Source: Neptunicoccus cionae (GTDB lineage Bacteria > Pseudomonadota > Alphaproteobacteria > Rhodobacterales > Rhodobacteraceae). Taken from it: a stretch of 64,000 bases of DNA. Shown piece by piece: positions 28,708-31,797 of this stretch. Below the pieces are notes generated by a model that was not told the origin of the DNA, did no database searches, and worked only from the letters and a program-made list of their open reading frames with translations. The DNA is taken from positions 1 through 64,000 of the forward strand of contig NZ_PKOJ01000010.1 of the NCBI RefSeq assembly GCF_002860325.1, in the 5' to 3' direction. The number at the start of each line of letters is the position of its first letter. The stretch's first letter is position 1. Both the position numbers and the translations under genes were made by a program.

Positions 28708-31700
28708 TCACGTCTTGTCCAGTTCGGACAGGTCTAGCCCCTTTTTCACCGCGAACTCCCGTGCCGCACGGGCGTTTTCCGCAGCACCGATCAAGTGACC
28801 GGCCACTGTGCGCAGCAGGCTGGTGGCAACATTGGTATCGTTCTCTATCACAGCCAGAAGCTCTGACGCACCGATCCGCAGGAACAACGACTCCTCGAGC
28901 GCGATCAGGTCCATCGCCCGTTTTTCGTTGAGAATGATGGCCAAATCTCCGATCAGGCGGCCCGGTTCGATTTCGGATATCAAGCGGTTTTCGTCACCTT
29001 CAATGTCCCAGTAAAGCCCTGCCTTGCCTTTCACGCAGAGATAGGCCGCATCCGGTGCCTGATCCCGTGCAAAAATAACCTGTCCCGCCCTCGCCGGAAA
29101 CCACTGCGCACTAAACGCGAGTAGTCTTTGCTGTTTCTGGTCGAGATTGGCGAAGAGACCGGTTTGTGCCACCACCCGCAGCTTGCGTTTAAGATCCTGC
29201 TTCGCGTCTTCATCTGCCGGTTCCTCGGCCCGCCGCACACCGTCGATGCGCCCGTCCACGATCTCGACATATAGGTCGTAAAGGTCTGGGTTGGAGAAAT
29301 GGTTCTCGATGAAAATCTTCGTGGTGTCAGGCATCAACTTGCCGATACGCTCGCGCATTTGCGCCCGTTTGGCGGAATCATGACTTGCCAGCGCATTACC
29401 AAGGATCAGAATATCAGGCTTCTTCAATCCGGCACGGCTAAACGCGATGCGCTCGCGGAAGACCCGGGGCAGGTTCTGGCCCCCCGGACCCGTGACCAGA
29501 TCATAGATTGATTGGGCCGCGAGACGCCGCAATCCGTGTTCGTTCAGCACCTCGACGACAAGATCTTCAACCTCCCGTTCGCGGGCACCGGCCATTCGCG
29601 AGATCCGCCCGAAGATTGCATTCCCGAGCACTGACATGACCGGCATGTACCGGCTCGGGTGGATGGTTTCGAACAACCCTTCAAGTTCGGCAACCATATG
29701 CTCGGCATTCTGCATGCGGATATCAAGAACCCGCTTCTTGAAGCTTTCCTTAAAGGCAGGCCCGATCTGTTCGGCGCTAAAGGCAAAGGGTACGGTCAGC
29801 ATCAAGGCAAACTCTTCCGGCGTCAGCGCGTCATTGCCTTGCCGACGTCGCTTTTTCGTGACCATGCGCAGCTTGTGATAAAGCGCATCTTCCATATTCA
29901 ATTGCCGGAACAGCGGGTGGTCTGTCGCATCTTCGCCAAAGGTGGTTGCAATCCCCTCGATCAGGCTGGCGGACATCTCCGCCACTTCATCTACAATATT
30001 TTCCTTTTTCAGGATGCTGAAAAATTTGCTCTGCTCTGCAAGATTTTCCTGCGTCAGCATCCGCGTTGGCACCGCATAAAGCAGGTTGCTGCCCAGTGGC
30101 GACACGGGGTTAAATTTGTTGGGATCGAAATGGTGCACAATATCCCCGAGCCCGGCCTGCTCCAGTCGGCGGGCGATTTCGGGGCGCAGTTCCACAATCT
30201 TTTCGGCCAGTTCGCTCTGATTTACGGGATCAAGCCGGTGACGCAATGCGCGGCGAACCATGAACTCGTCAATCCCCATAGCTTCGCCCAGATTGAACCA
30301 CCAGTCGCGGATCTCATCCTCGCTCTTGAACCCCGCCAGCGCAGGATCAAGCCAGTTCACCCCAAGCGGATCGTCACTGTTTCCTGCGCGGCGCGCCTCT
30401 TCCTGCCAGCGGTACATCTCGGGTGGTACATCGCTGTCAATCAAGGGTTTCCGGCGGAACGGCATCAGCAGATTATCCCCCATCGTCCCCTGAAAAATCT
30501 GGGGGACGGGGCTGGCATAGCCAATACGGTTTGCCACGACGGTTTGATGCAGGCTGTTCAGGTCGTGCCCGGCCACCCGCACCCTGCCCCGCGCCGGAAC
30601 AACCTCCCGCGTTAGAAGATCGGCAAAGGCCAGCGCGGCGGTTTCGTTGGTTGTCTGAATCGCCACCCGCGCGCCTTTGGGAATGGTCAGATTGATGTCT
30701 TCCAGAACAATATCACCAGAGTCATCGCGCACCGTAACATCGTTCAGTTCGATATCGCCTTTCAGGCTCGGGATGGAGTCGGGCTCGCCCTCAAACAGGC
30801 TGTCATCAACCAGCGTTTTCGGCGCAAAACGTTCCGTTACAATCTCCCAGCGCAGCCCCATATCCTGCACCTGATTGTAATAGGTCAGCAGTTCCTTCCA
30901 AGGGGATGATAAATCCTTATAGGCCGCAAGGGCTGCCACCAGCGCGCCCACAGTGATCTGCCCTTTGATCGCCAGATAGCCGCCAACCGAATAGAAAAAG
31001 AACGGCGTCAGCTGATTGATGAAGTTGTTCAGAAACTTCATGAAGAATTTTTTCTGGTAGATATCGAAACGAATATCAAACAGCTTTCCCAACCGGTCCG
31101 AGAACTGCGCCGCACGGTAGCGCAAGCCCCCGTTGGTCCGAATGTCACTGACACCTGCAGCAGTATCCCCGATGTCGGAAGCCAGATGGCGCACTTCTTC
31201 GATACGGGATTTGTTCAGCAGGTTGATCTGTCGTTGCAGTCTCGGAATCAGCCACGCCTGCAGCGGGATCAGCGCCACAGAGGCCAGCCCGAACCAAAAG
31301 CTTTGGGCGAAGAGGAAGGCCAGAATGGTGATCATCTGCCCTGCCTGAAAAACCGGCTGGGAAATCATATCCCCCATAAGGCCGCCCATCGGCTCGGCTT
31401 CTGATGTGACCATCGCCACCAGTTCGCCCTGGCTTGTCTGGCGGAAGTAGGGGCGCGGAAACCGCATCATTCGGGTCAGAAGCTGGAAACGGAACCGGCG
31501 CAAAAGCCGCTCTGCAAGCACACCTTTCATGGTGTTAAGCCGCATTTTCAGCAATCCGTTGGCCAGCACCGCGATCAGAAAGCCGAAACACAGGATCATC
31601 AGAAACTGGGTCTGGGTGAAGGTAAAGCCGAAGTAGGTTATATCCTCGCCACTGCCACCAATCGCGTCATTGATAATCCGCTTTGGCAGTTCGAGACTGA

Positions 31701-31797
31701 TGTAAAGGACAGGAAAAGTTATTATTGTCAGCGCCAGTAATAGCAACTGACTGCGTTTGGAGTACTTCCAGATGTATCGAAACAGGCTTTTTTCCAT
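28708..31797 (-). CDS. ABC exporter-like protein with degenerate ATPase and cNMP-type domain
   Basis: A 1029-residue inner-membrane protein. Residues 1-320 are an ABC exporter membrane domain with about six helices. Residues 348-855 look like a nucleotide-binding domain by layout, but its key motifs are eroded: AIQTTNETAALAF (379-391) stands where Walker A should be and lacks GxxGxGK[ST]; the Q-loop region GYASPVPQIFQGTMGDNLL (426-444) is kept; the signature is GPGGQ (770-774); Walker B is ILILGNALASHD (796-807) without the DE pair; an H-loop-like ENHFS remains (831-835). Some 320 extra residues lie between Q-loop and signature. Residues 875-985 resemble a Crp-type cyclic-nucleotide-binding fold (EIEPGRLIGDLAIILNEKRA). 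The start at 31797 has AAGGGA upstream. Function unknown. Confidence 0.82.
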   Translation of the reverse strand: MEKSLFRYIWKYSKRSQLLLLALTIITFPVLYISLELPKRIINDAIGGSGEDITYFGFTFTQTQFLMILCFGFLIAVLANGLLKMRLNTMKGVLAERLLRRFRFQLLTRMMRFPRPYFRQTSQGELVAMVTSEAEPMGGLMGDMISQPVFQAGQMITILAFLFAQSFWFGLASVALIPLQAWLIPRLQRQINLLNKSRIEEVRHLASDIGDTAAGVSDIRTNGGLRYRAAQFSDRLGKLFDIRFDIYQKKFFMKFLNNFINQLTPFFFYSVGGYLAIKGQITVGALVAALAAYKDLSSPWKELLTYYNQVQDMGLRWEIVTERFAPKTLVDDSLFEGEPDSIPSLKGDIELNDVTVRDDSGDIVLEDINLTIPKGARVAIQTTNETAALAFADLLTREVVPARGRVRVAGHDLNSLHQTVVANRIGYASPVPQIFQGTMGDNLLMPFRRKPLIDSDVPPEMYRWQEEARRAGNSDDPLGVNWLDPALAGFKSEDEIRDWWFNLGEAMGIDEFMVRRALRHRLDPVNQSELAEKIVELRPEIARRLEQAGLGDIVHHFDPNKFNPVSPLGSNLLYAVPTRMLTQENLAEQSKFFSILKKENIVDEVAEMSASLIEGIATTFGEDATDHPLFRQLNMEDALYHKLRMVTKKRRRQGNDALTPEEFALMLTVPFAFSAEQIGPAFKESFKKRVLDIRMQNAEHMVAELEGLFETIHPSRYMPVMSVLGNAIFGRISRMAGAREREVEDLVVEVLNEHGLRRLAAQSIYDLVTGPGGQNLPRVFRERIAFSRAGLKKPDILILGNALASHDSAKRAQMRERIGKLMPDTTKIFIENHFSNPDLYDLYVEIVDGRIDGVRRAEEPADEDAKQDLKRKLRVVAQTGLFANLDQKQQRLLAFSAQWFPARAGQVIFARDQAPDAAYLCVKGKAGLYWDIEGDENRLISEIEPGRLIGDLAIILNEKRAMDLIALEESLFLRIGASELLAVIENDTNVATSLLRTVAGHLIGAAENARAAREFAVKKGLDLSELDKT

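Follow-up and report, generated by a model that had tools for sequence, protein, structure and literature searches.

Here we describe a gene at 28708..31797 on the reverse strand of a 64,000-nucleotide stretch of Neptunicoccus cionae DNA (contig NZ_PKOJ01000010.1, positions 1 to 64,000, hereafter the window). It encodes a protein with the layout of an ATP-binding cassette (ABC) exporter, ATPase motifs stripped of key residues, and a fused C-terminal cyclic nucleotide monophosphate (cNMP) binding domain. We tentatively favor the reading that it is a cNMP-controlled, non-hydrolyzing, exporter-fold ABC protein of a glycan pathway, with the ATPase domain kept as a coupler. This reading draws on a modeled fold and on several observations: the family-wide loss of motifs, purifying selection, an inverted pattern of conservation, a constant cNMP partner, and co-occurrence with a glycosyltransferase cluster. 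We recognized no published description of the fused family in the literature searched, with most subscription papers outside reach. Fused members are mostly annotated "ABC transporter transmembrane domain-containing protein" and several rhizobial relatives "ABC transporter ATP-binding protein"; neither annotation tells of missing ATPase residues or of an accompanying sensor.

The window protein matches Pfam ABC_membrane over residues 39-290 (E 7e-18) and has the six-helix membrane domain of type IV ABC exporters. Its ATPase domain scores below the Pfam ABC_tran cut-off (17.4 vs 25 bits); it aligns to solved exporters as two pieces and has the ABC ATPase-domain fold. With the cNMP_binding match at the C-terminus, this recovers the order of exporter membrane domain, nucleotide-binding domain and Crp-type domain proposed by an earlier reading made without database searches (the sequence-only reading). 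The protein has no Pfam match to a C39 peptidase and its cNMP domain is C-terminal, which sets it apart from HetC-type peptidase-containing transporters. The features are as follows.

28708..31797 (-): whole gene, putative exporter-type ABC pseudo-ATPase with fused cNMP domain; 1029 aa, single open frame, ATG start
30823..31797 (-): transmembrane domain, residues 1-325, with the highest conservation in the family (Pfam ABC_membrane, AlphaFold2 (AF2) helices, conservation)
30445..30765 (-): first half of the ATPase domain, residues 345-451
30631..30654 (-): former Walker A, residues 382-389 (TTNETAAL), without G or K (PCAT1 and family alignments)
30508..30510 (-): former Q-loop glutamine position, P430 (PCAT1 and family alignments)
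29506..30444 (-): insertion-bearing stretch between the Q-loop and signature regions, residues 452-764, about 290 residues longer than in PCAT1
29962..30195 (-): internal repeat copy, residues 535-612 (hhalign against residues 691-767: 98.3% probability, 77 columns)
29497..29727 (-): internal repeat copy, residues 691-767, the hhalign partner of 535-612
29242..29505 (-): second half of the ATPase domain, residues 765-852
29458..29472 (-): former signature motif, residues 776-780 (LPRVF; PCAT1 and family alignments)
29395..29412 (-): former Walker B, residues 796-801 (ILILGN; PCAT1 and family alignments)
29302..29304 (-): former switch histidine position, N832 (PCAT1 and family alignments)
28837..29091 (-): cNMP-binding domain, residues 903-987 (Pfam PF00027, E 7e-13)
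28915..28950 (-): phosphate-binding cassette, residues 950-961 (GDLAIILNEKRA), with G, D/E and R kept in 89/89 fused homologues

Walker A of the window protein (VAIQTTNETAALA) contains neither glycine nor lysine, with A388 at the lysine position in an alignment to PCAT1, and Walker B has neither D nor E, in line with the statement of the sequence-only reading that both motifs lack key residues. Other placements in that reading had to be moved. The signature is indeed lost, but PCAT1 LSEGQ falls on LPRVF rather than on the GPGGQ immediately upstream of it. The Q-loop, which had been read as kept, has a proline at its glutamine position, and ENHFS is not the H-loop, the switch histidine aligning to N832. 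The large insertion stands, at about 290 rather than 320 extra residues (anchor-to-anchor distance of 319 residues vs 29 in PCAT1).

We compared 145 distinct homologues taken from 165 loci, keeping the best 80 of 338 relatives from a search with the window protein and adding up to 30 loci from each of two further searches. Proteins of at least 1000 aa were called fused. The counts below cover 89 fused and 51 unfused proteins, a set biased towards the two queries, the window protein and L096; among the unfused, the full-length window query supplied L095-L097, and L096, itself without a cNMP domain, supplied the others. L024, L094, L155, L157 and L158 were excluded from motif-residue, catalytic-residue and pocket counts, and L094 and L155 from the domain-conservation comparison. 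In the family alignment, none of the 89 fused homologues has the Walker A lysine, the catalytic glutamate, the Q-loop glutamine or the switch histidine, and the Walker B aspartate is present in 52/89. The degenerate motifs are common to the whole fused set, and under purifying selection (see below), which upholds the earlier suggestion of a pseudo-ATPase at the level of sequence; ATPase activity itself is predicted to be lost.

The 51 unfused relatives retain more. Their Walker A lysine position holds K in 24 and R in 15, many of them (e.g. L107-L127) reading GxxGxG[KR][ED], and the following residue is E or D in 45/51 and S in 2/51, leaving the Mg-binding S/T site acidic. The Walker B aspartate is kept in 7, the catalytic glutamate in 24, the Q-loop glutamine in 9, the signature glutamine in 48 and the switch histidine in 16. 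Counted over five key residues, 18 proteins keep none, 5 keep one, 17 keep two, 10 keep three, 1 keeps four and 0 keep all five. L207 (7941-11252, 1103 aa), the full form of a second fusion in one genome, has GKS, VVDEG and a canonical-looking cNMP pocket. The sequence-only reading had held that homologues with intact Walker A and B would count against it. Such homologues exist in part, as these unfused proteins and L207 (GKS and DE), and their partial sets of catalytic residues fit erosion within the family. On these alignments, the fused clade is the far end of a graded erosion.

Retention of this kind also bears on the idea that the protein is still ATP-powered, whether by using a non-canonical site or by forming a heterodimer in which the other half-exporter is intact, which we consider quite improbable. 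Heterodimeric exporters with a single weak site are common, and ordinary exporters are encoded elsewhere in the window genome. Since 33/51 unfused relatives keep at least one of the five catalytic residues, part of the wider family may bind or hydrolyze ATP, and at L104 tblastn located a pair of ABC ATPase-domain matches immediately upstream of a fragment from a full-type relative. However, the fused clade has lost the lysine and the catalytic glutamate along with the residues of the signature, Q-loop and H-loop, and a single tblastn with an exporter ATPase-domain query found no second such domain in the window.

The simultaneous loss of many motifs could also be expected of a decaying, non-functional gene, an explanation that is already contradicted and whose likelihood we put close to nil. 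Against the two nearest homologues dN/dS is 0.053 and 0.045, with values of 0.03-0.07 across all domains and 0.034-0.068 in the ATPase halves; against L009 it is 0.091, and dS is saturated for more distant homologues. Open frames of more than 1000 aa are present in 79/80 loci L007-L086, the remaining one ending at a contig edge, and the sensor pocket is kept. The motif-loss pattern is not chance: it holds over 89 homologues, and dN/dS against the two nearest is low.

Sequence conservation indicates that selection in this family rests on the membrane domain. Mean pairwise identity among 35 fused proteins is 0.737 in the membrane domain vs 0.556 in the ATPase domain (membrane higher in 595/595 pairs), and among 36 unfused proteins 0.519 vs 0.411 (601/630 pairs). 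Canonical exporters show the inverse, with 0.217 vs 0.601 among 23 homologues of L002 (membrane higher in 0/253 pairs) and 0.374 vs 0.694 among the nine closest (0/36 pairs). Several charged membrane-domain positions are held across the family (73 rows): K84 in 71, K294 in 69, D295 in 69, K301 in 67 and E302 in 72. K294-D295 and E302 lie in the last membrane helix. Relatives consisting of the membrane domain only were found at L010 (9610-10821), at L102, L103 and L163 (382-437-aa frames), and at L098, L099 and L105 (333-347-aa frames); in none of these seven loci did tblastn with an exporter ATPase-domain query detect such a domain. The frames at L102 and L103 adjoin apparent copper/cupredoxin and cytochrome c genes, as judged by eye.

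Another reading is an SbmA/BacA-like secondary transporter that would draw on the proton gradient and be switched allosterically by its cNMP domain. SbmA provides a precedent for an exporter-type membrane domain running without ATP (PMC13316013, from the portion available), and the membrane-domain-only relatives and the conserved K294-D295 and E302 are in keeping with it. We regard this as distinctly unlikely. The window protein has kept an ATPase fold under purifying selection, unlike SbmA, and has no match to the SbmA_BacA Pfam profile at E 1. The putative proton coupling is read from sequence, and residues 295-297 are modeled with low confidence.

The cNMP domain is the constant partner of the family. 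In the fused clade, where the pocket columns are occupied in 89/89, G950 and R960 are invariant and position 951 is D in 86 and E in 3, so that both the domain profile and the phosphate-binding cassette are recognizable; the pocket residues are kept despite an overall domain identity of 0.518. Each of the 51 unfused relatives is followed on the same strand by a stand-alone cNMP gene, within 300 bp in 50; L096 is the exception, with a methyltransferase gene between the ABC and cNMP genes. A crude pattern search of these stand-alone proteins gave a plausible pocket in 43/51, no match in five and an unrelated stretch in three. A Methyltransf_17-like gene also lies downstream in at least 21/51 unfused loci, most of which reach only ~1.5 kb. 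The second fusion (L155/L157/L158) is separate in the tree (support 100; main fused clade, 66), and the ABC-cNMP fusion probably happened twice. Such recurrent joining of ABC and cNMP partners favors a single working unit, and takes the link to a nucleotide-type sensor beyond what the sequence-only reading had noted. The window genome has two Guanylate_cyc genes, which may be a source of cyclic nucleotide. In Sinorhizobium meliloti, an adenylate/guanylate cyclase gene (L206 3744-5093) is ~12 kb distant from the transporter-cNMP gene pair.

Gene neighborhoods point to glycan synthesis. The sequence-only reading had looked to zapE and DUF6552 for context, but among the loci compared, some of them with short flanks, these two border the gene nowhere beyond the window and its two closest relatives, and the informative context was a glycosyltransferase cluster. 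Glycosyltransferases of two kinds lie within ~6 kb in 8/8 unfused loci chosen for wide flanks, and also at L013, L022 and L023; a histidine phosphatase and a deacetylase-like gene are near as well in 7/8 of the wide-flank loci (Pfam, NCBIfam). No Pfam profile matches the deacetylase-like gene, which takes its name from the S. dubius annotation. Annotated records show the same picture: R. johnstonii 3841 pRL11 and R. etli p42e each have three glycosyltransferases, ABC and cNMP genes with an importer-type ABC set upstream, the relative on S. meliloti 1021 pSymB has the same glycosyltransferase context, and S. dubius combines a nucleotide-sugar dehydrogenase, four glycosyltransferases, a histidine phosphatase, a deacetylase and the fused gene, the only annotated exporter-type gene of that cluster. 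The window genome has its cluster on contig C1 (L213 3929-10257), seven genes comprising four glycosyltransferases, the histidine phosphatase, the deacetylase-like gene and Methyltransf_17, with the transporter gene absent from it; they are 40-63% identical to their L013 counterparts (L194 for the methyltransferase).

Among 295 same-family genomes, the transporter was found in 61 (E 1e-100), the cluster glycosyltransferase marker in 65 (E 1e-40) and both in 60 (Fisher p 1.7e-55, uncorrected for phylogeny). Two transporter candidates and up to six glycosyltransferase candidates were scored per genome, so third copies could be missed (one is known in G178). In the 60 genomes the two genes lie within 20 kb in 8, at 20-60 kb in 12, further apart in 9 and only on different contigs in 31, where draft contigs may mask closeness. 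Many same-family genomes have two copies of the transporter, with ~55-60% and ~50% identity to the window protein. Fused proteins with 65-72% identity also occur at L011, L012 (Moritella), L015-L019, L021, L022, L045 and L064 (Granulosicoccus-like or other Gammaproteobacteria). These identities exceed those of most Roseobacters among the best 80 of 338 relatives, and therefore suggest horizontal transfer.

Taken together, the evidence favors a working membrane domain, an ATPase domain acting as a mechanical coupler, a ligand of the cNMP site as input, and a glycan pathway as the setting. By analogy with other exporters, the protein would be a homodimer that has lost ATP hydrolysis. The degenerate ATPase domain and the partly repeated helical insertion would couple the membrane domain structurally to the C-terminal sensor, where binding of a ligand, possibly a cyclic nucleotide, would set membrane-domain conformation. 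The membrane domain could then gate or allow the movement of a surface-glycan or glycolipid intermediate, with ATP no longer the fuel; the putative intermediate would be made by the conserved cluster of glycosyltransferases, histidine phosphatase, deacetylase and methyltransferase. The sequence is compatible with downhill passage, with use of a proton gradient or with signaling only, and any of these may apply.

Signaling only is the essence of another explanation, in which the protein is a regulatory scaffold or sensor of the sulfonylurea-receptor type, transporting nothing and relaying its signal to the glycosyltransferases or another partner. Dead ATPase motifs beside a kept sensor would suit such a role, as would a gene that lies far from the glycan genes in the window genome yet co-occurs with them across genomes. 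The rhizobial importer-type ABC set, annotated with a substrate-binding protein, also adjoins glycosyltransferases. We judge the scaffold unlikely, though less easily set aside than a proton-driven transporter: conservation peaks in the membrane domain, whose charged positions are held family-wide, which suggests that this domain has a function of its own, and in the S. dubius cluster no other exporter-type gene is annotated.

Several of these observations weigh against our favored reading as well, namely the catalytic residues of the unfused relatives, the ATPase-domain matches at L104, the rhizobial importer set and the uncorrected co-occurrence statistic. In addition, the gene lies outside the cluster in the window genome and in most Roseobacters examined, and the marker is found without the transporter in 5/65 genomes and the transporter without the marker in 1/61. 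The cassette glutamate is replaced by D in 86/89 fused proteins, and the residue following the arginine is mostly not T or S. Domains of the cNMP type do not always bind cyclic nucleotides: that of HetC bound ppGpp, and cAMP gave no stabilization (PMC10986499, as far as the accessible text goes). Finally, the AF2 model is a monomer, with predicted local distance difference test (pLDDT) values below 50 at residues 161-174 and 295-297 of the membrane domain.

ABC exporters are defined by ATP-driven cycling. If our favored reading is true, the dropped catalytic residues, inverted conservation and kept second-messenger-type pocket would amount to an ATP-driven machine brought under a regulatory ligand; a glycosyltransferase cluster that spans Roseobacters to rhizobia, among them S. 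meliloti with its routine knockouts, would gain a named component, and the alphaproteobacterial cyclases a candidate effector. A wider proposal, which we offer as doubtful, is that there is a class of ABC-derived proteins, widespread in Alphaproteobacteria, in which control by ATP has passed to a cyclic-nucleotide (or related) sensor to give a ligand-gated flippase, scramblase or channel for glycans or glycolipids.

The window protein resembles the type IV (ABCB-like) exporters MsbA, PCAT1, TmrAB and TM287/288 in the folds of its membrane and ATPase domains. Unlike them, it lacks the Walker A lysine, the Walker B acidic pair and the signature, Q-loop and H-loop residues, adds the insertion and the C-terminal cNMP domain, and is more conserved in the membrane domain than in the ATPase domain. 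K301 aligns with a lysine in the last helix of E. coli MsbA, which we take to be K299, a lipid A contact. CFTR and SUR still bind ATP and are not known to carry a cNMP domain, and SbmA is not known to carry either an ATPase domain or a cNMP domain. The membrane domain of SbmA/BacA (SLiPT) is of the exporter type and works without ATP (PMC13316013, in part); the window protein differs in its unmatched profile and in its retained ATPase fold. In HetC of Nostoc, a peptidase-containing exporter, the cNMP domain is N-terminal, a C39 peptidase is present, an ATPase residue is needed and the bound ligand was ppGpp, according to the available part of PMC10986499. Like the window protein, HetC joins a cNMP-type domain to an ABC exporter, and there the same partial source describes the domain as required for function.
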